A DNA stretch of 21,263 bases from positions 1 to 21,263 of IMG/VR virus record IMGVR_UViG_3300030012_000041. The stretch is one strand, 5' to 3'. Source of the DNA: a virus. The position numbers and the translations under genes were made by a program. The notes under the pieces are model-generated. The model did not search any database. It worked only from the letters and a program-made list of their open reading frames with translations, and was not told where the DNA came from. Positions 120 to 10,164 of the stretch are shown piece by piece (within the stretch, counting starts at the first letter, position 1; each line of letters opens with the position of its first letter).

Positions 120-2552
120 ATGAGTAACATAAATTTCATCCCCGAAATTCCATTGACATGGTTGACTTGTCCGATATATGCCGAGGGTGTATTACTACCG
201 AAAAGAAATGAGTCGAGTCCAGATAGATATTCTGACGGCAAAGTTCCTTTTGGTAGAGCGTGGAAAGAAGAACTTACAGTAAATGATTCTGCTCTGATGA
301 TTGAGAGAGAACCAGATAAGTTCAAAGCTATTGGTGTATTCACAGGTCAGAAGTCAGATGGTCTTGTGATATTTGACGTAGATAGGAACTTAGGTGTTAT
401 TGAAAAGAAATGGGGTAAAGATCTTAAAAAAGCACCAAAAGTTACATCACTTAGGAAAAATGCTGCTAAGTTTCTTTTCAAAGTTCCACAGGATCTTGTA
501 ACTGAAGTTGCTTCTATCTCACAGACTGCTGCTGGACAGGAAGGTTGGGAAGTTTTATGGGGAGGACAGGGTGTAATAGCTGGTGAATACCACAAAAAAG
601 GTGTAGGTAAAGGCGAATATAAATTGGAAGGTGATCTGTTTGACGTTCCAGTAGCTCCAGAATGGTTGCTATCTCGTATGAAGGATCAACATAAGAAAAA
701 TAATCAGGATGTTGATATTAAATATGTTGACAACAGATGGAGTAAACGTACCAAGGAAGAGAGGATTGCGATTATTAGTGGTTGCTTGAGTGTTATCGGA
801 CACAAAGGACCTAACCAAGAACATTATTGGTGGGAAATAGGTGCGATGATAAATAATGAGCTTCCAGGAATTGAAGGTTTAGAACTTTGGACAGAGTGGA
901 GTAAAAGAGATCCAGATTATGAACATTGTTGGGAAGAGGGTGAAGATCCTTGTGCTGCCAGATGGTATGCAACTTGGAGGAATGATGGTGCTAGATACAA
1001 TATGTCTCACCTCATTGAGTTAGCAGATAAGGTCGATCCAGAAAGAAAGAGATTTAAACAGGTTGGGCTGGATAAATTAATTGAAGATGTAGAGGCTATC
1101 CCACTTAGATACAAAGAGGAAGTGTTGGATGGTGAAGATCTTATTCAGCGATATATGGATATTGATAATGATCCTAAGAATGAGAACCCTGCACTACATA
1201 ACCAAGCGGTCCATAAATTAGCTATTGAAGCGAAGCGTGGTAATGCTGCTGAGATTGAGAGGTTAGTTGATACTCACGAAATGTTCAATAGAACTAAGGG
1301 TCAGAAGCCTTTAGCTATTGATGAGCTAGACGATACACCCTTTGAATATCTGATTCCAGGATTGCTACCTAAACCTTGGACATTGTTGGTTCATGCAGAT
1401 GGTGGTACAGGAAAGACTGCTATGTGTCAGACAGTGGCTAAACATATTGGACATGGAAAAGCATTTAATGTTTATGGTGCTTTAGTTAACGTTCCAGTTG
1501 GTAAGGTGCTTTGGTTGAACGGAGATCAGAACGAAAGGATATTGCGTAGGCAGATGAAACTTATTGGATGTGATAAAAATGTTCGGGTAGTTACTGAGTG
1601 GGATATGCAGTGGTACAGCAGATTCAAAAAGATGCAGAATAAATATGCTTACGATCTAGTAGTTATTGATAGTTTGGACGGCTGTAATGATAGCAACCCA
1701 TACGAAGAAAATAGGAGAGAGTATGCGTTGCCTATCAAAAAACTTGTTAGACGAAATGGACAGGATTTTCCTGCTTGTTCAATAATTATTATTCACCACA
1801 ATACCAAGGAAGGAAAGTTTAGGGGAACTACTGCGATTAAAAATGCGGTTGATGAAACTTGGAATATGAAAAAATTATCAATGAATGATGCTGCTGAGAT
1901 GGGTCTTACAGCAAATAGCAGATTAGTAAGCGTTGAGAAGTCCAGAGAGGATCGTGAAGGGCTTAGGATGATATTTACCCTTCTACCTGATTACACATAC
2001 TCTATAAGCCCTGCACCAGACCGTACAGAAGAGGTTGTGATAGACACTCCAAACAAACATACTTTGGACATATTGCGTTTGATGAGGACAGAAACTAAAC
2101 CTTGGTGCGTTAAAGATTTGGTAGATCACGATACTGTCGGTGGATCTCATAGAAAACGTGCCATAGTATATAGCTTAAATAAACTGGAAGATCAGAAATT
2201 GATTGAAGAAGTTGACGTTCCAAAAACTAAGAGTAGAGGAGGTAGACCATCTAAATTTTATAAAGCTGTTGGAAAGGAATTACCAAAGTCTTTTAGTTCC
2301 TTCCCGCGCGATATACCCCGAAATGATGTGTATAAACCCAATAATGTAGTTATTGGAACGGATTTGAACAACAATGAAAATTGTAAAAACCCTAATTTTG
2401 TAAAAACCTCGGAAGATAGTGGAGGTTTATACAAAGAGGAGGTTAATACAAAACCGATTGTTGTTGAAAACTCTTCCACTGGAACGAAAGAGGGTTTATA
2501 CACTGATGGGTCTGGGTATATAGAGGAAAACCAAAAATTCTGGGAGCAGTAG
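120..2552 (+). CDS. Primase-polymerase / RecA-fold helicase fusion protein
   Basis: This 810-residue protein probably primes and unwinds DNA at the phage replication fork. Residues about 15-185 look like a bifunctional primase-polymerase domain, with the metal-binding DxD at D86-V-D88 after GVFTGQKSDGL. The region where this fold normally carries a catalytic histidine reads KNAAKFLF (113-120), with no His. Residues about 208-300 resemble a primase C-terminal (PriCT-2) domain, rich in Trp. A RepA/AAA_25-type ATPase follows: Walker A ADGGTGKT (426-433, with Ala where the first Gly is usual), Walker B VVID (514-517) and HH at 559-560. Residues about 645-700 look like a winged helix, and the last 90 or so residues are Asn/Ser/Lys-rich and probably disordered. 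The ATG has no clear Shine-Dalgarno. The domain order matches phage and plasmid primase-helicases; the exact enzymatic activities are inferred. Confidence 0.9.
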   Translation: MSNINFIPEIPLTWLTCPIYAEGVLLPKRNESSPDRYSDGKVPFGRAWKEELTVNDSALMIEREPDKFKAIGVFTGQKSDGLVIFDVDRNLGVIEKKWGKDLKKAPKVTSLRKNAAKFLFKVPQDLVTEVASISQTAAGQEGWEVLWGGQGVIAGEYHKKGVGKGEYKLEGDLFDVPVAPEWLLSRMKDQHKKNNQDVDIKYVDNRWSKRTKEERIAIISGCLSVIGHKGPNQEHYWWEIGAMINNELPGIEGLELWTEWSKRDPDYEHCWEEGEDPCAARWYATWRNDGARYNMSHLIELADKVDPERKRFKQVGLDKLIEDVEAIPLRYKEEVLDGEDLIQRYMDIDNDPKNENPALHNQAVHKLAIEAKRGNAAEIERLVDTHEMFNRTKGQKPLAIDELDDTPFEYLIPGLLPKPWTLLVHADGGTGKTAMCQTVAKHIGHGKAFNVYGALVNVPVGKVLWLNGDQNERILRRQMKLIGCDKNVRVVTEWDMQWYSRFKKMQNKYAYDLVVIDSLDGCNDSNPYEENRREYALPIKKLVRRNGQDFPACSIIIIHHNTKEGKFRGTTAIKNAVDETWNMKKLSMNDAAEMGLTANSRLVSVEKSREDREGLRMIFTLLPDYTYSISPAPDRTEEVVIDTPNKHTLDILRLMRTETKPWCVKDLVDHDTVGGSHRKRAIVYSLNKLEDQKLIEEVDVPKTKSRGGRPSKFYKAVGKELPKSFSSFPRDIPRNDVYKPNNVVIGTDLNNNENCKNPNFVKTSEDSGGLYKEEVNTKPIVVENSSTGTKEGLYTDGSGYIEENQKFWEQ

Positions 2553-2555
2553 TAG

Positions 2556-2816
2556 TTGAAACAACCCATAATAAATGTCACTATCTACGAGGAAATAAAT
2601 CCCACCGAAGATAGTCCACTAGCTACTGTGCGTTACACAGAATACTCAAACAAAGAAAGAAATAAAGTTGAAAAAGTAAATCAGGTTGAATATCACGATC
2701 CAGAGTATTTTCATAGTGAGGTTTTACAGGCTGTTAGCTATGGACTTGATGTTTCTATATGCACACGGCTTAGTGTGAATACTTTACAAAAGAAGTTAAG
2801 TTACTGGACAAGATAA
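2556..2816 (+). CDS. Hypothetical protein, 86 aa, TTG start
   Basis: I do not recognise this family. The frame opens at a TTG 3 nt after the primase-helicase stop, with a GGGAG Shine-Dalgarno-like run at 2542-2546, 9 nt upstream. No ATG occurs near this point in the frame, so TTG is the only sensible start. The product is charged and soluble, with several Tyr and His (YHDPEYFH near residue 46). It has no membrane segment or known motif. Spacing implies translational coupling to the helicase, so a replication-accessory role is plausible but unproven. Confidence 0.65.
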   Translation: MKQPIINVTIYEEINPTEDSPLATVRYTEYSNKERNKVEKVNQVEYHDPEYFHSEVLQAVSYGLDVSICTRLSVNTLQKKLSYWTR

Positions 2817-2832
2817 TCTATTGTGCTACAAT
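2805..2832 (+). promoter_or_regulatory. Candidate promoter upstream of the DNA polymerase
   Basis: TGGACA (2805-2810) and TACAAT (2827-2832) are spaced by 16 nt, each one mismatch from the sigma70 consensus boxes. The pair lies across the end of the preceding gene, 26 nt before the polymerase ATG, in the longest intergenic gap of the replication module. Confidence 0.45.
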
Positions 2833-2858
2833 AATAGAGCATATTTATAGGTTCTCCC

Positions 2859-4721
2859 ATGACCTCAACAATTACTAAACAAGAATATTCTGTCTATTAC
2901 GGAATATCAGAATTAAAAAGATTGCAGACTGCTCACAGTCTTGCGTTTGATACAGAAACATTACAACTACAACCAGAAGAGGGTAAGCTCCGACTGATTC
3001 AGTTGGGGTCTTTTTCTTCTCGAACCATAGTAGTTATTGACTGCTTTGAACTGGAACGTAGCGATTGGAACTATTTAGAAGATTTTTTCAGTAGTACCAA
3101 TAGATATTGGCTGGCACACAACGCAGTATTTGATCTTGGCTGGTTACAAGAGCATGGCATATATCCAGAGGGATTTGTGCGTTGCAGTATGTTAGCCAGC
3201 AGATTACTTACAAATGGTATTCCACAGACTAAGCATGGTCTTGATGCACTAGCTAAAAGACAACTTGATATGAATATATCTAAGGAACAACAGAAGTCTG
3301 ATTGGGGTGCTGAGTATTTATCCAAAGAACAGTTAATCTATGCTGCGAAGGATATCGAAGTACTACTTGAATTAGATCAGGTATTGGACAGAAAGATAAG
3401 AAATGCACAATTAGATAGAGCTTATACATTGGAATGTAGGGCACTTCCAGCTATGGCCCAGATGTGGAGAACAGGACTACCCTGGAATAGGGAGGAGTTA
3501 GATCAATGTCGTATTGATTATGAAGATGACATTAAAGAACTTGGTAATGAATTTATTAGAGAACTTGATAACGACTTACCATCTGGAAAAAAGTTACCTA
3601 GAAATGAAGATGGCTCGTTCAACCTTCGTGCGAAAGACCAAGGCTCAAAAAGATTAGGTACTAAAAAGTATGCAGGATTCAATATTAAAAGTTCTAAGCA
3701 ACTATTAGAAAAACTTGAATTAGTCCTTGGTTATACACCAGTGAATAATGACGGTAAGCCTAGTGTTGCTAAAGATGCTTTGAAGAATTGTGCTGCTGAT
3801 TCTCCTACGATCCAAACACTTATGACTTGGAAACGTAGAGAAAAGCGTAGACAGATGATTGAGAGCATACAAGATAAGATGACTTTACACAGAAAGTTTA
3901 AGGATATTTATTTTGTTAGAGCATCTTATATGCAGTTAGGTGCAGATACAGGAAGAATGTCTAGTATCAAGCCAAATAATCAGCAGATACCAAGAGACTC
4001 GGAGTTTAGACAATGTGTGCAAGCTCCTTTGTACTGGAAGATTGTAGATGCTGACTTTTCGCAGATGGAGTTACGTCTTGCTGCTGCATTAGCTAAAGAC
4101 AAGAACATGACTGCTGCATTTCAACGTGGAGAGGATTTACACGACTATACGGCTAAACAAATGGGATGCGATAGACAGATCGCCAAATCTGCTAACTTTG
4201 GTTTGTTATATGGTGCTGGTGCTGAAGGTTTACGAAAGTATGCTGGAAGCAGTGGGGTCATCATGTCCAACGATGAAGCTGTAAAGATTCGGGATAACTG
4301 GCTCAATACATATAGTGGTATTCGAGATTGGCAAAGAGAGATGAATTATCTTTCACGATCCACCGAAGGCGATGAGTGGCCTGAGACTAGGGTTCCAGTA
4401 TCTAATATGCGTAGATTCTTAAAAGGTGATCTTAATAGAACTACTGTTAGATGCAATACACCGATCCAGGGTGCTGGTGCTGCGATATTAAAGTGTGCAT
4501 TGGGTAATTTATGGGCCAAAGTCAAAGAAGCGGGCGAAGATAAAGTAATGATTGCAGCAGCCGTTCACGATGAATTAATACTTCTTGTTAAGGAAGATTT
4601 AGCGGATGAGTGGGCTCAAATTCTTAAAACTACAATGGAAAAAGCGGAAGCAAAATGGTTAGGAGATGTTCCTGCATTAGCTGAAGTGTCTATTGGCGAC
4701 AAGTGGAGCGAAGTTCATTGA
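2859..4721 (+). CDS. polA: Family A DNA polymerase with 3'-5' exonuclease
   Basis: This replicative DNA polymerase has 620 residues, typical for phage family A enzymes that lack the 5' nuclease domain. The proofreading exonuclease is intact: Exo I FDTET (30-34), Exo II NAVFD (88-92) and Exo III YAAKD (161-165). The polymerase has motif A DADFSQMELR (397-406, catalytic D399), motif B from R439 through K443 to FGLLYG (447-452), and motif C HDE (570-572). The residue equivalent to E. coli Pol I 762 is Phe (F447). The ATG at 2859 has only a weak AGG upstream. The TGA stop overlaps a TTG that opens a 28-codon gene. With the primase-helicase upstream it makes up a minimal phage replisome. Confidence 0.97.
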   Translation: MTSTITKQEYSVYYGISELKRLQTAHSLAFDTETLQLQPEEGKLRLIQLGSFSSRTIVVIDCFELERSDWNYLEDFFSSTNRYWLAHNAVFDLGWLQEHGIYPEGFVRCSMLASRLLTNGIPQTKHGLDALAKRQLDMNISKEQQKSDWGAEYLSKEQLIYAAKDIEVLLELDQVLDRKIRNAQLDRAYTLECRALPAMAQMWRTGLPWNREELDQCRIDYEDDIKELGNEFIRELDNDLPSGKKLPRNEDGSFNLRAKDQGSKRLGTKKYAGFNIKSSKQLLEKLELVLGYTPVNNDGKPSVAKDALKNCAADSPTIQTLMTWKRREKRRQMIESIQDKMTLHRKFKDIYFVRASYMQLGADTGRMSSIKPNNQQIPRDSEFRQCVQAPLYWKIVDADFSQMELRLAAALAKDKNMTAAFQRGEDLHDYTAKQMGCDRQIAKSANFGLLYGAGAEGLRKYAGSSGVIMSNDEAVKIRDNWLNTYSGIRDWQREMNYLSRSTEGDEWPETRVPVSNMRRFLKGDLNRTTVRCNTPIQGAGAAILKCALGNLWAKVKEAGEDKVMIAAAVHDELILLVKEDLADEWAQILKTTMEKAEAKWLGDVPALAEVSIGDKWSEVH

Positions 4722-6016: not shown

Positions 6017-6330
6017 TCTCTTAAGTGCTGTCTTATCTGTCTCACAAGTTTTACTTTTTCTACAAATAAACGAAATTTATAAAATAATTTGTTTTTAATT
6101 GGCGGTGTCTGTAATACGGCTAATTTTGCTTCAAGCTCTAGCATACGCATCATTGCGTTGGATAGTACAAGTTCGCTTCTTGCATGGTTCTTCATCATAT
6201 CTATGCAAAAAGCCTTTAGCTTATCTATATCATTACAACCCATAACTTCTCTACATCTCATCTCAACGGATAACTGTGTTTCAATAGGTAGAGGGGTTGA
6301 AATAAATCTTATGAAGCCATCATTCTTCAT
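5998..6330 (-). CDS. Hypothetical protein, 110 aa, last gene of a leftward trio
   Basis: A soluble, largely helical protein containing PLPIETQLSVEMRCREVMG near residue 13, a central helix pair, and a basic C-terminus. From memory the PLPIE-x-QL-x-x-E segment resembles a hypothetical family seen in cyanophages; I know no function. Its ATG overlaps the stop of the upstream 60-aa gene (ATGA at 6330-6327), implying translational coupling. A 126-codon frame on the opposite strand is rejected as its shadow. No signal peptide or catalytic motif is visible. Confidence 0.75.
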   Translation of the reverse strand: MKNDGFIRFISTPLPIETQLSVEMRCREVMGCNDIDKLKAFCIDMMKNHARSELVLSNAMMRMLELEAKLAVLQTPPIKNKLFYKFRLFVEKVKLVRQIRQHLRDHSREA

Positions 6331-6509
6331 CGTGGTAAAGATGATACTGGTCTACCTGGAAACAGTTGCTGCTCTAGAAAATCTACTGCCTGGTCGTCAA
6401 GGTCATTTGAAGTTTGTTTACAGATGGCTCGTAACAGATCTACAACTAACTGTTTACACGCTGATGTAGAAAGGAATTTAAGAAGTAAAGGCTTTAAAAT
6501 TTTTAGCAT
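6327..6509 (-). CDS. Small helical protein, 60 aa
   Basis: The sequence starts MLKILKPLLLKFLSTSACKQ and continues with VVDLLRAICKQTSNDLDDQAVDFLEQQLF. From memory, short proteins with a KPLL-like hydrophobic N-terminus and a T(D/S)N-x-(V/L)DD motif occur in many phages, with no assigned function. The N-terminal helix is amphipathic or hydrophobic and could associate with membranes, but there is no clear transmembrane span. It couples to the downstream 110-aa gene by a 4-nt overlap and follows the 53-aa membrane gene by 34 nt. Confidence 0.7.
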   Translation of the reverse strand: MLKILKPLLLKFLSTSACKQLVVDLLRAICKQTSNDLDDQAVDFLEQQLFPGRPVSSLPR

Positions 6510-6751: not shown

Positions 6752-7204
6752 ATGGCAGAGAAACCGAAAGATTTATCAGAAAAACCAAAACAATTAGACG
6801 ATGATAAACCCGATTATCAAGAAAAAATTACTTTTTTAGTTTCTACTTTTGCACAAGGATTTATTTTAACTTGGTGTTTGGTAGTCTTATCTCTCGGATA
6901 TATAAAGTTACCTAATAAACTTTTCGGGGTAGACATTCCAGATCAACCTAGAGTGGATAGCACATTTGCTGCTGGACTTTTAGGAAACATCTTAGGTGGA
7001 CTTGGGATAAGCGTTAATGCAGCACAGGGAGCTAAGAAGAAAAAGAAAGAAGATGAAAATGGTACTATCGGTAACTCCACTGGTGGCACTCAAACTATAA
7101 TAATAAGACAGCCAATAGAATTGGTTACAAGTAAACCTGATGTTATTAGAGTTGATCCCATTACTGGGAAAAATATTAAAAACAACGGAAAACTAGACAC
7201 ATGA
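6752..7204 (+). CDS. Membrane protein, 150 aa, first gene of the exported-protein operon
   Basis: After a charged N-terminus (about 25 residues, Lys/Asp-rich), residues about 27-52 form a strong membrane helix containing FAQGFILTWCLVVLSLGYI. A second Gly-rich hydrophobic stretch at about 71-92 (FAAGLLGNILGGLGISV) may be another span or a hairpin. A KKKKKEDE linker and a beta-like tail (TIIIRQPIELV) follow. From memory it resembles an uncharacterised cyanophage membrane family. A holin-like role is conceivable but unsupported. Its TGA overlaps the next ATG by 4 nt, tying it to the three exported proteins downstream. Confidence 0.8.
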   Translation: MAEKPKDLSEKPKQLDDDKPDYQEKITFLVSTFAQGFILTWCLVVLSLGYIKLPNKLFGVDIPDQPRVDSTFAAGLLGNILGGLGISVNAAQGAKKKKKEDENGTIGNSTGGTQTIIIRQPIELVTSKPDVIRVDPITGKNIKNNGKLDT

Positions 7205-7716
7205 AAAAACTTCTTCCATTTTTATTTCTTATGTCAGCACCAGTTTATGCTGATATAAAACAGGAATTTGTAACCTCTGCACAGATTACTGTTGATATGC
7301 CATATAGCGTTACCAATAAACTTGGAACGACATATTCAATATCAGGTAATAATATTACTCCATCTGTAACTTCGGGAGGGTCAACAACTGCTGGTCAAAT
7401 TGGTGCTTTAAATGTTGGGTCATTAACGGATGGTGTTCCAGCTTTGATTCAAACTGACAAAGCTATTACAAGTGCAGGATCAGCCTTTAGTCTCACAGAA
7501 TCAGTAACAATGGGAGATGCCACACCTTCTGCAATTACTCCTTCTAGTGGAATTGCTACGATACCTCATCTATCAGGACAGACAACAGTGGGATCAGGTG
7601 GTACTGCTGGAAACCTTGCTATGACTAGCCTTTCATCAGGAGTTCATACTTGTACTGCTGGAGGATCAGGTACTAGCTGTATAGGATCTACTACTGTCCG
7701 TATTACGATTGACTAG
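7201..7716 (+). CDS. Sec-exported beta-rich protein A, 171 aa
   Basis: A classic signal peptide opens the protein: MKKLLPFLFLMSAPVYA with predicted cleavage after A17 (V-Y-A/D). The mature part is rich in Ser, Thr and Gly, with no long helices, and reads as beta structure. Two motifs are shared with the next gene: GTTYSISGNNI (42-52) and AFSLTES (95-101). Two cysteines (C151, C160) could form a disulphide outside the cytoplasm. From memory similar proteins occur in cyanophages without known function. As an exported non-lytic protein it would sit in the periplasm or outer envelope of the infected cell. The start overlaps the previous stop (ATGA) and the end overlaps the next start by 8 nt. Confidence 0.8.
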   Translation: MKKLLPFLFLMSAPVYADIKQEFVTSAQITVDMPYSVTNKLGTTYSISGNNITPSVTSGGSTTAGQIGALNVGSLTDGVPALIQTDKAITSAGSAFSLTESVTMGDATPSAITPSSGIATIPHLSGQTTVGSGGTAGNLAMTSLSSGVHTCTAGGSGTSCIGSTTVRITID

Positions 7717-8146
7717 ACTTTGGCTGCTGGTTTTATTAACATTACCTATAAGAACACTTGCTGTTCCTGTAGTCCCACAGTTTCGTACAGGAAGCTCTAC
7801 AACATCAAGTACATCTGAATCAATAATTAATGAAACAATCACGAGCCATCAATATCGGACAGGATACTCCTACTCAGCATCAGGACATAATATTGAAAGC
7901 ACCGATACAAATAAATATATCAACCCTACAGCTACTACTCTTACAGAACAAACAGTTGGAGGGGTAAATTTTAGTTGGACTTCACCAAACTTAGAAACCG
8001 TTCCAAGATTCACAATCACAAATCCAGGGGCATCATTTTCTCTCCAAGAAACTCTAATCACACCAGGGTTAGACACAGTAACGACAATAACAAGGCAGAT
8101 AAATACAAGCACCACAACAGAAACTACAACTACATTTGGGCAGTAA
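7709..8146 (+). CDS. Sec-exported protein B, 145 aa, related to A
   Basis: The protein begins at a TTG that overlaps the preceding gene by 8 nt. MTRLWLLVLLTLPIRTLA forms a signal peptide with probable cleavage after A18 (T-L-A/V). The mature part is Thr/Ser-rich and without cysteine. It carries TGYSYSASGHNI (51-62) and SFSLQET (109-115), matching the motifs of the upstream protein, so A and B look like diverged tandem paralogues or share a domain. The C-terminus is a Thr-rich run ending in FGQ. The role is unknown. The placement and shared motifs suggest a common extracytoplasmic structure. Confidence 0.75.
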   Translation: MTRLWLLVLLTLPIRTLAVPVVPQFRTGSSTTSSTSESIINETITSHQYRTGYSYSASGHNIESTDTNKYINPTATTLTEQTVGGVNFSWTSPNLETVPRFTITNPGASFSLQETLITPGLDTVTTITRQINTSTTTETTTTFGQ

Positions 8147-8730
8147 TTCTGTTTTCAATACCTGTAAAACCCTCTTTAGCTTCGACTACAATCGCGTCAC
8201 CTCAATCGCAAAATACAGGGGTAGTAAATAACAATGCCACCATGATAACCCCATCTTCCATGCCTTCTTTCAGAATGAGTCAGGGTATTGTATGTGCTTC
8301 TCCTAGTCTTACGATCACTCCGTATGTAACTGACTCTCATACATTTTCTTTACCTAGAGAAACTGTTACAAGACAAAATATCTATGACGAGAATACAGGA
8401 GCGATAAAGTATGTACAGGAAACTCCTAGATTTGAGAAGGAGAACTTTAATTTAAATTATGGTATCTCTGCTCAATTAAACATTCCATTAGGAAAGTCTC
8501 CACAACTTTGCCATAGGGCAACAGAAATAAATATCAAAAATCAGGAATTATTGTATAAGAAAACCAAGTTAGAGATCAGTTTACATAGGTTGAAAATCTG
8601 CGCGGAACAGGCAAAATTAGGTGTTTACTTTAAGCCTAATACTCCTAGTGCTGTTACCTGTGAAGATATTGTTGTTAATATCCCACCAAATCAAGTTATC
8701 CCACATACTCACGAATTAAAAACTAAGTAG
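8134..8730 (+). CDS. Exported protein C, about 198 aa, start uncertain
   Basis: The frame is open from a TTG at 7975, but codons before about 8134 overlap protein B and look non-coding. The plausible signal peptide (IWAVILFSIPVKPSLA/S) begins at an ATT (8134); other candidates are ATT 8146 or CTG 8149. No ATG, GTG or TTG lies at the right place, so the coordinate given is my best guess. The mature part contains HTFSLPRET (69-77), echoing the FSL-x-E(S/T) motif of A and B. It has four cysteines (about 54, 126, 156, 176) and a helical Lys-rich stretch near 135-165. Its end overlaps the convergent Pro-rich gene by 8 nt. Confidence 0.65.
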   Translation: MWAVILFSIPVKPSLASTTIASPQSQNTGVVNNNATMITPSSMPSFRMSQGIVCASPSLTITPYVTDSHTFSLPRETVTRQNIYDENTGAIKYVQETPRFEKENFNLNYGISAQLNIPLGKSPQLCHRATEINIKNQELLYKKTKLEISLHRLKICAEQAKLGVYFKPNTPSAVTCEDIVVNIPPNQVIPHTHELKTK

Positions 8731-9364
8731 ATTTATCTTTCTTCTTTGTAAGCTTCTTTACTATTTGTTTTACTAATGGTTTTACTGCGTTAAGAAGAAG
8801 TGGACTACTGGCAGCGACCAAGCCAATAACAGCAGTAGATACAATAGTAGAAACTTCTGGAATGTATTGATCTTTAAACGGAACACTTTCATAAAGAGTT
8901 ATACATTCAATCCCATCTTCCCCTCTTTTATGGCCTGTGACACGTTCCAATCGTTTTTCGTTACGAAAATCTCCAACCCTCTGATCTTTTTTGCCAGGAC
9001 AGGGTTCTAATTCAATATCTTTTTCTTTCGGTATTTCTGGTATTTCTGGAGTCGTTGCTTCTGGTAAGGGTGGGGTTTCATTAGTGACAGGTACTTCTTC
9101 TGTAATGACAAGGTTCTCAGGTGTATAGTCAAGAGGAACAAAACTAGGAAACGGAAAATCACACGTTGTATATACTCCATTTGGATCTTCCAACAATAAA
9201 TTATGATTACCAGTATTTTTTATATCTCGATGCTGATAAGTACAACCAGGAACATCAATATCAGGTGGTTTTGTAATAGTTAAATAGTGTGGGTTATAGA
9301 TTTCTGGAACGTCTGGGATATATATTTCAGAAATACTTATATGAGGTATTTCAATCGTAGGCAT
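8723..9364 (-). CDS. Pro-rich protein with C-terminal hydrophobic segment, 213 aa
   Basis: Residues 1-40 are rich in Pro, Ile and Glu with repeated EI(Y/P)-like units. A compact middle section follows (VPGCTYQHRDIKNTGN, LLLEDPNGVY), then a Pro/Glu linker (about 90-115), a charged section (QRVGDFRNEKRLERVTGHK near 127-145) and a C-terminal hydrophobic segment (VSTIVSTAVIGLVAASSPLLL) with a Lys-rich tail (KKLTKKKDK). From memory this matches a hypothetical family repeatedly found in marine cyanophages; no function is known to me. Four cysteines are present. The topology suggests a tail-anchored membrane protein with the bulk on one side. It overlaps the upstream zinc-ribbon gene by 14 nt. Confidence 0.8.
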   Translation of the reverse strand: MPTIEIPHISISEIYIPDVPEIYNPHYLTITKPPDIDVPGCTYQHRDIKNTGNHNLLLEDPNGVYTTCDFPFPSFVPLDYTPENLVITEEVPVTNETPPLPEATTPEIPEIPKEKDIELEPCPGKKDQRVGDFRNEKRLERVTGHKRGEDGIECITLYESVPFKDQYIPEVSTIVSTAVIGLVAASSPLLLNAVKPLVKQIVKKLTKKKDKST

Positions 9365-9512
9365 CTCGTTTCTTTAGTACTTCTACTTCTGAAAAACATT
9401 TAGGACAGGATAAGTTAGTCATCACCGAAAACTCAGGATAACCATTCATATCTTCTTCAATGTCAATGTCACCGCCTATGATTAGTTCTGTATTACACCA
9501 ATAACAATTCAT
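9351..9512 (-). CDS. Double-CxxC zinc-ribbon protein, 53 aa
   Basis: This leftward 53-codon frame opens MNCYWCNTELIIGGDIDIEE and carries C3-Y-W-C6, then CPKC (36-39), the ligands of a zinc ribbon. Its acidic centre and C-terminal EVEVLKK are, from memory, typical of a small hypothetical protein common in cyanophages. The ATG overlaps the stop of the upstream membrane gene (ATGA at 9512-9509), and its end overlaps the downstream Pro-rich gene by 14 nt. Zinc binding is inferred from the cysteine pattern; function is unknown. Confidence 0.75.
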   Translation of the reverse strand: MNCYWCNTELIIGGDIDIEEDMNGYPEFSVMTNLSCPKCFSEVEVLKKRDAYD

Positions 9513-9748
9513 ATCTTAGATTTTTTCATAGTAGGTGGGATTGGTAAAGATGGGCCTGTAAGATCTGGTAATCCTTTCTCTAAAACTTTAGGCATCATTC
9601 CTTGTACACCACCAAGGAGTTTATTCATCATCTTCGTTTGAAACTGTTCTGATGTTACATATTTATATCCAAAGTATCCTCCACCAATAACAGAGGTTAC
9701 CATTACGAATGAGACAATACTCAAAACATTAGCAATTTTTTGAAACAT
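9509..9748 (-). CDS. N-terminally anchored membrane protein, 79 aa
   Basis: Residues about 7-30 (NVLSIVSFVMVTSVIGGGYFGYKYV) form a single membrane helix. The rest is soluble, with a Met/Gly stretch (NKLLGGVQGMMP) and a Pro-rich end (LPDLTGPSLPIPPT). From memory similar short membrane proteins accompany the zinc-ribbon gene in cyanophages. It is the first gene of a coupled leftward run. Its start CAT shares bases with the ATG of a rightward micro-gene (CATG at 9746-9749), so the two genes diverge from one tetranucleotide. Confidence 0.75.
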   Translation of the reverse strand: MFQKIANVLSIVSFVMVTSVIGGGYFGYKYVTSEQFQTKMMNKLLGGVQGMMPKVLEKGLPDLTGPSLPIPPTMKKSKI

Positions 9749-9875
9749 GATTAAAGAAGCCTTTGCAAAAGCATTAGTACCTGTGACTATTATAACTTTC
9801 TGCGGAATCTGTGCATTAGCACCGCTTTATGTAGGACTATCAGTAATATCTACCAAGGTACACCAGAAGTCCTAG
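9747..9875 (+). CDS. Membrane micro-protein, 42 aa
   Basis: The rightward frame begins MIKEAFAKALVPVTIITFCG and continues ICALAPLYVGLSVISTKVHQKS: a short amphipathic N-terminus, one membrane helix and a basic end. It fills the 101-nt gap between two leftward genes, overlapping the start of one by 2 nt and the end of the other by 26 nt. The coherent membrane-protein pattern makes chance unlikely. No promoter or Shine-Dalgarno is evident, so the call stays moderate. Confidence 0.5.
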   Translation: MIKEAFAKALVPVTIITFCGICALAPLYVGLSVISTKVHQKS

Positions 9876-10164
9876 TAGGAGTCTTTGATTCTGTTATCTG
9901 TGCAGCAATTCCTGTTTCAATAGCTGTTACTTCATCAGAACCTATTGCAGCTTTAGCCCATGCGATAGCATTTTCTTTTGTTATATCTGCATAAGCAGTA
10001 AACGATCCAGAATCAGCAGCAGCAAGGCCAACAGTGCCGTAAGCAGAGCCAGAGTGATCTCCATCTGAATCACTTGCAGTCCAGTGAACAGTAGTAACAA
10101 CATCAGATAAACTTCCTACAGTTTTTGTTGCATCTAATGAAACAACATTCCAAGTAACAGCCAT
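9850..10164 (-). CDS. Small structural-type phage protein, 104 aa (DUF7936-like)
   Basis: The protein starts MAVTWNVVSLDATKTVG and has the pattern I recall for a family of about 100 aa near phage tail or fibre genes: VVTTVHWTASDSDG, then a Gly/Ala beta region, the helix ITKENAIAWAKAAIG, and a conserved-looking end (IAAQITESKTPT, then GVPW). The family has no firm function. A virion-associated or fibre-adjacent role fits its place at the end of the tail operon. The family name is from memory and needs a profile search. Confidence 0.7.
   Translation of the reverse strand: MAVTWNVVSLDATKTVGSLSDVVTTVHWTASDSDGDHSGSAYGTVGLAAADSGSFTAYADITKENAIAWAKAAIGSDEVTAIETGIAAQITESKTPTRTSGVPW

Follow-up and report, generated by a model that had tools for sequence, protein, structure and literature searches.

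Genes A, B and C of the window (the whole 21,263-nt stretch of DNA analysed here, a 21.3-kb virus genome fragment recorded as IMGVR_UViG_3300030012_000041) are shown by our comparisons to be the half, predicted to be exported, of a conserved marine-cyanophage cassette consisting of Z, A, B, C, D and E. B and C overlap out of frame, and judged by the distribution of open frames and synonymous changes among relatives, this overlap is real and under selection. The T4-like cyanophage version of the cassette has been known since 2010 with no function given, and the genes are not peculiar to the window phage. The features of the window region are as follows.

6752..7204, plus strand: Z, with two hydrophobic segments (residues 28-46 and 70-88); PHROG_2714/721, DUF6450; overlaps the start of A by 4 nt
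7201..7716, plus strand: A, ATG start, 171 aa, PHROG_564; signal peptide 7201-7254, mature part 7255-7713; predicted to be exported
7309..7509, plus strand: segment of A homologous to B (YSxSGxNI ... FSLxES), from the HMM-HMM alignment
7709..8146, plus strand: B, TTG start overlapping the stop of A, 145 aa, PHROG_650 / DUF6322; signal peptide 7709-7762; predicted to be exported
7847..8059, plus strand: segment of B homologous to A, from the HMM-HMM alignment
7958..7964, plus strand: GGAGGGG, a Shine-Dalgarno-like element inferred from sequence, 10 nt before the start codon of C
7975..8730, plus strand: C, TTG start, 251 aa, PHROG_848/1755; N-terminal extension, signal peptide and mature part
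Within C: basic stretch of about 53 aa at the N-terminus; hydrophobic core at 8134-8163; signal peptidase cleavage predicted after residue 68; mature part, 8179-8727
7975..8146, plus strand: B/C overlap, two reading frames, with C in the -1 frame relative to B
8723..9364, minus strand: D, PHROG_570 (T4-GC 234), 4 Cys; tail-to-tail overlap with C
9509..9748, minus strand: E, 79 aa, N-terminal hydrophobic segment, PHROG_568

Because Z ends on the ATG of A and the TTG of B overlaps the stop codon of A, Z-A-B-C constitutes one tight gene row. The D protein of the window has a single hydrophobic segment close to its C-terminus, followed by a basic tail. The "plasmid stability" label of E (PHROG_568) is database naming only; it denotes a 79-aa single-segment membrane protein found with the cassette. 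Elsewhere, the window encodes a primase/helicase-type protein, a family A DNA polymerase and, on the minus strand, a lambda-type tail module comprising a tape measure, M, L, K, I and J homologues and a fibre with an S74 chaperone domain. The only close DNA match in the public phage collection was marine virus AG-345-A17 (80.5%), and the best isolate protein matches of A were the Prochlorococcus siphophages MED4-184, P-HS2 and MED4-117 (67%), indicating that the window comes from a siphovirus-like marine cyanophage.

The original prediction regarded such a row of exported proteins as rare among tailed phages, which proved wrong for this group. A was found in 403 records of the public phage collection, B in 400, C in 411, Z in 441 and D in 408, almost all of them marine cyanophages, and the carriers include T4-like, TIM5-like, siphovirus-like and, lacking A, T7-like members. 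PHROG_564, 650, 848 and 570 were matched, and the A-B-C order facing D is identical in S-SSM7, P-RSM4, S-SM1 and P-HM2. E matches PHROG_568 and Z matches PHROG_2714/DUF6450, which correspond to the "plasmid stability" gene of the cassette and GC218. In the T4-like layout, A-B-C and Z-E-GC219-D form two rows that run towards each other, with C and D tail to tail, and B, C and Z occur together in S-SM1, P-SSP7 and P-SSP10. Eight phages searched (S-PM2, PSS2, Syn5, P60, S-CBS4, Pf-WMP4, S-CRM01 and S-CREM2) yielded neither B nor C, and Z was also absent from them save for a weak, stop-interrupted match in S-CREM2.

The main text of Sullivan et al. (2010; PMC3037559) describes GC 218, 219, 234, 235 and 237, together with "plasmid stability", as one clustered cassette, present in all their cyanophages except S-PM2, and puts the clustering down to "functional reasons" with no function assigned. 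The genes are the same ones (Z is GC218, D is GC234, C is GC235, B is GC236 and A is GC237), although the cluster as given there leaves out B. The A-B-C row facing D tail to tail and the E-like "plasmid stability" gene nearby are also shared. Unlike that cluster, the cassette of the window belongs to a siphovirus-like phage with a lambda-type tail, its Z precedes A within one operon, and a GC219-like gene was not identified in the window. Export, the out-of-frame overlap, late promoters of the cluster and T7-like members are not mentioned in the main text of that paper (PMC3037559).

We assessed the signal peptides of all three proteins, A, B and C, from their composition and motifs. A and B had been placed correctly, at 7201-7716 and 7709-8146, and called Sec-exported, and each indeed begins with an n/h/c signal peptide, with predicted cleavage after MKKLLPFLFLMSAPVYA and before D in A, and after MTRLWLLVLLTLPIRTLA and before V in B. 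The two common motifs reported earlier are also present (GTTYSISGNNI in A and GYSYSASGHNI in B; FSLTES and FSLQET, respectively). When profiles built from IMG/VR relatives were used to compare the mature parts by HMM-HMM alignment, A matched B over 65 columns spanning both motifs, with a probability of 90.7, an E value of 1.3e-6 and a score of 42.7, whereas 40 column-shuffled controls scored 21.0 at most and the reversed control scored 11.5. Additionally, 16 of the 61 A relatives matched Pfam DUF6322, the family of B (best E value, 1.2e-4). At the level of sequence profiles, these comparisons show A and B to be homologous and descended from one ancestral domain. In T7-like cyanophages B and C are present and A is not detectable, which fits either an origin of A by duplication of B or a loss of A in these phages.

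The suggested duplication and divergence of an extracytoplasmic beta domain thus holds for A and B but does not extend to C, for which profile comparison of the mature parts gave no homology (HMM-HMM probability, 0.11 with A and 0.04 with B), and we rejected C as a third paralogue. The FSLPRET string that had linked C to the others does exist in the window; however, only 84 of 449 C relatives have anything similar. By this comparison it is a clade-specific coincidence, and C is unrelated to A and B. The two predicted structures, of C and of A, were of low confidence (pLDDT 61 and 66). The A model is all-beta, in keeping with the beta-rich, low-complexity composition of A and B, while the C model contains beta segments and a predicted 40-residue helix. 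Fold searches with these two low-confidence models gave no E value below 0.001 in the PDB and no Z score of 5 or more, although at this confidence either protein may still have a known fold; a viral structure library returned cyanophage relatives of C, including those of T7-like P-SSP10 and P-SSP3. A PDB sequence search gave nothing credible, and matches of B to the WRAP-T designed propeller (E value about 1e-5) were discarded, as no single stretch passed the threshold alone.

The start of C had been put at about 8134. The codon there is ATT and is replaced by CTT, GTT or TTT in relatives, so we rejected 8134 as the start codon. The frame is open back to a TTG at 7975, which has an in-frame stop immediately before it and GGAGGGG at a spacing of 10 nt. 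Taken together, the sequence features of the window and its relatives show that C begins at this TTG, inside B and in the -1 frame; consequently the predicted C signal peptide straddles the B stop codon, which is spanned by its hydrophobic core. The likely signal peptide in the original prediction was borne out, with an AxA-like site in all 212 dereplicated loci, where the n-region is basic (mean net charge, +4). A lipobox pattern was seen in 2 of the 212 C loci and in none for A or B. Mature C carries four invariant Cys, at mature positions 39, 111, 141 and 161.

Several lines of evidence bear on the overlap. Of 419 loci, which had been collected for their similarity to A or C and not for the frame relation, 417 have C in the same -1 frame of B, and the overlap is at least 120 nt in nearly all loci. 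Over the last 46 codons of B, the -1 frame is open in 212/212 dereplicated loci, against an expectation of 16.4 under synonymous exchange of B codons, whereas the other alternative frame is open in 1 against 13 expected; further upstream in B, the -1 frame is open in 6 of 142. At fourfold sites, third-position differences amount to 0.22-0.35 in the stretch of about 90 codons next to the B stop, compared with 0.40-0.47 at codons 91-130. The same geometry is found in isolates Syn9, P-RSM4, P-SSM4, P-SSM2, S-TIM5 and S-MS29 and in T7-like P-SSP7 and P-SSP10. One exception to the frame, MED4-184, has 7 T after the B stop (locus L001, 8947-8965) where MED4-117 has 8 T (locus L239, 3447-3465); the shorter run shifts C from the usual frame and reflects either a sequencing error or a real indel.

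The constancy of the -1 frame could also mean that C is made as a B-C fusion by -1 ribosomal frameshifting from B and not from its own start codon, the more so as in the window the first start codon is more than about 45 codons away from the hydrophobic core of C. We consider this very improbable, because a canonical upstream start (ATG or TTG) occurs in the C frame in all 212 dereplicated loci. Among the window-type relatives with the TTG, 52 of 53 have a preceding Shine-Dalgarno-like sequence, and those without TTG at -172 have an ATG at -139, 33 nt further on, and tolerate a stop codon in between. Counted from the B stop, the ATG of C in T4-like relatives lies at about -166 or about -310, and inspection by eye showed no conserved slippery heptamer. 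The overlap has led annotators to start C too late (S-TIM5, P-SSP7), to miss C (S-MS29) or to miss B (P-SSP10), and proteomic searches against these records may therefore miss peptides. The gaps located are given below.

L482, 43241-43636: B, unannotated in P-SSP10
L241, about 2430-3060: C, unannotated in S-MS29
L483, 38627-39238: C of P-SSP7, started after its signal peptide

The timing of the cassette can be read from motifs in its T4-like relatives. In 116 of 167 T4-like loci, the stretch from -50 to -15 before A contains TAAATA, the T4 late promoter core (given as TATAAAT in PMC3037559), preceded by a C or A nucleotide and mostly about 26-35 nt before the start; shuffled sequences gave a mean of 9.6 and at most 18. 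Upstream of Z the motif was found in 70 of 90 loci, mostly at -27 (shuffled mean, 4.4; maximum, 9), while the internal genes C (1/195) and D (4/197) nearly lack it, so both rows look like late operons in these phages. The siphovirus-like group showed nothing comparable to this late-type motif, and a sigma-70 and terminator scan of the window region found no promoter-like site near the operon start. Going by the T4-like motifs, we infer that the cassette is transcribed late; the main text of the P-HM2 infection transcriptome paper gives no values for cassette genes. In P-SSP7 and P-SSP10, the cassette sits between the tail-fibre and terminase genes. That place is occupied in the T7 layout by gene 17.5 (holin) and, nearby, by 18.5/18.7 (the Rz/Rz1 spanins).

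According to the above-described results, we tentatively favour, over superinfection exclusion, a late envelope-disrupting (lysis) module in phages without recognised spanins; this is the simplest reading of exported A, B and C accompanied by three membrane proteins, late and near the lysis position. The cassette would act as infection ends, in the envelope of the host. After Sec-dependent passage through the inner membrane and removal of their signal peptides, A, B and C would come to lie in the periplasm or at the outer membrane, where C would probably be held by disulphides between its invariant Cys and the three proteins may form a periplasmic complex. Together with the membrane proteins Z, D and E, among which Z could play a holin-like role given the holin-like layout of its two hydrophobic segments, they would breach the envelope layers and let the progeny leave. 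The module would thus replace the holin and spanins of other Gram-negative phages, without spanin sequence or anchoring, and the tight operon with its B/C overlap might keep B and C in a fixed proportion. A more specific version, possible but rather doubtful, is that Z-A-B-C-D-E is a new type of outer-membrane-breaching lysis system, distinct from spanins and common to T4-like, T7-like and siphovirus-like marine cyanophages, whose key exported pair comes from overlapping out-of-frame genes.

Known spanin pairs differ from this arrangement in their anchoring, as the o-spanin is an outer-membrane lipoprotein with a lipobox and the i-spanin retains a transmembrane anchor at its N-terminus. In A, B and C the signal peptides are cleavable and of the signal-peptidase-I type, a lipobox is lacking (the C loci having the AxA-like site instead) and the mature parts contain no hydrophobic segment; hence these proteins are not spanins. 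They also differ as beta-rich exported proteins with an extra paralogue, A, and sequence similarity of the cassette to Rz/Rz1 was not found. By contrast, the cassette shares with the two-component spanins Rz/Rz1 (PMC6139136) the origin of envelope proteins from overlapping out-of-frame genes, often mis-annotated, as well as periplasmic cysteines (four invariant ones in mature C) and, in T7-like relatives, a late lysis position. A published survey found no spanin in 20 phages of Prochlorococcus and Synechococcus and proposed that these phages might not need one, and the cassette carriers P-SSP7, P-SSM2, P-SSM4, P-HM2, Syn9, S-SM1 and S-SSM7 are on that no-spanin-found list (PMC6139136). We nevertheless rejected the cassette as the missing spanin of all cyanophages, and it is no general answer, because spanin-less S-PM2, Syn5, P60, PSS2 and S-CBS4 lack B and C. 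As for Z, its two hydrophobic segments and charged ends, seen by hydropathy in the window, S-SM1, P-SSP7 and P-SSP10, and its location at the T7 gp17.5 position in P-SSP7/P-SSP10 resemble a class II holin. Class II holins have two membrane segments and an N-in/C-in topology. However, Z belongs to DUF6450 / PHROG_2714, outside the curated holin families, and it matched none of the holin models, only DUF6450 and PHROGs with no function assigned.

The lysis reading has to be weighed against two others. In its favour, gene set and order are kept in T4-like, TIM5-like, siphovirus-like and T7-like cyanophages, and A, B, C, Z and D occur in nearly equal numbers of records; against it, we know of no member with known lytic activity, and the cassette contains no endolysin. 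That the exported proteins act together in the envelope, as the original prediction proposed, is supported by their staying with three further membrane-protein genes across unrelated phages. The accompanying proposal of superinfection exclusion or host-surface modification, in which the three proteins would cover or alter the periplasm or outer membrane and block adsorption or injection by further phages, agrees with the export signals of all three, with the proximity to tail-fibre genes in the window and P-SSP10, and with the spread of one gene set among phages competing for the same hosts. T4 exclusion genes imm and sp, though, act early, whereas the promoter motifs in T4-like relatives are of late type and, together with the place of the cassette in P-SSP7 and P-SSP10, which is that of the lysis genes in T7, point more to the end of infection; known exclusion proteins showed no similarity in PHROGs, Pfam or NCBIfam, and we regard this explanation as unlikely.

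The same late motifs and tail-fibre neighbourhood, along with the beta-rich, low-complexity character of A and B, would suit a virion or tail-fibre accessory that is partly exported, or added to the particle or fibres during release. Such a role appears decidedly unlikely, since tails are assembled in the cytoplasm and cleavable Sec signals are kept across all divergence seen, and the clusters are called hypothetical in the main text of the S-SM1 virion-proteome paper (PMC3037559) and in the S-SM1 record. In the texts and records covered, no detection of A, B or C in virions came to light. The S-CREM2 virion proteome lists no such protein, but the S-CREM2 genome itself is without C and B. The late envelope-disrupting module therefore stays our preferred, if tentative, reading, and under it the cassette bears on the rupture of the outer membrane in Prochlorococcus and Synechococcus infected by marine cyanophages. 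Present across unrelated tail types, it is among the most widespread unexplained gene sets of marine cyanophages, and its defined anatomy, corrected gene starts and timing signal make the question of function directly testable.

Nine matches fell in bacterial assemblies, two in Prochlorococcus single cells and seven in MAG or isolate contigs. The relatives of C seen there (loci L473-L481) include one in the isolate Nonlabens xiamenensis 1Q3, on a 188-kb contig, and several in MAGs labelled as other phyla; these are probably cyanophage contigs binned or co-assembled there. Two small minus-strand genes of the window, at 6327-6509 (PHROG_2738) and 9850-10164 (PHROG_7802), have apparent counterparts beside the cassette of T7-like P-SSP10, that of the latter judged by eye, and the shared block may thus be larger than Z-A-B-C-D-E.
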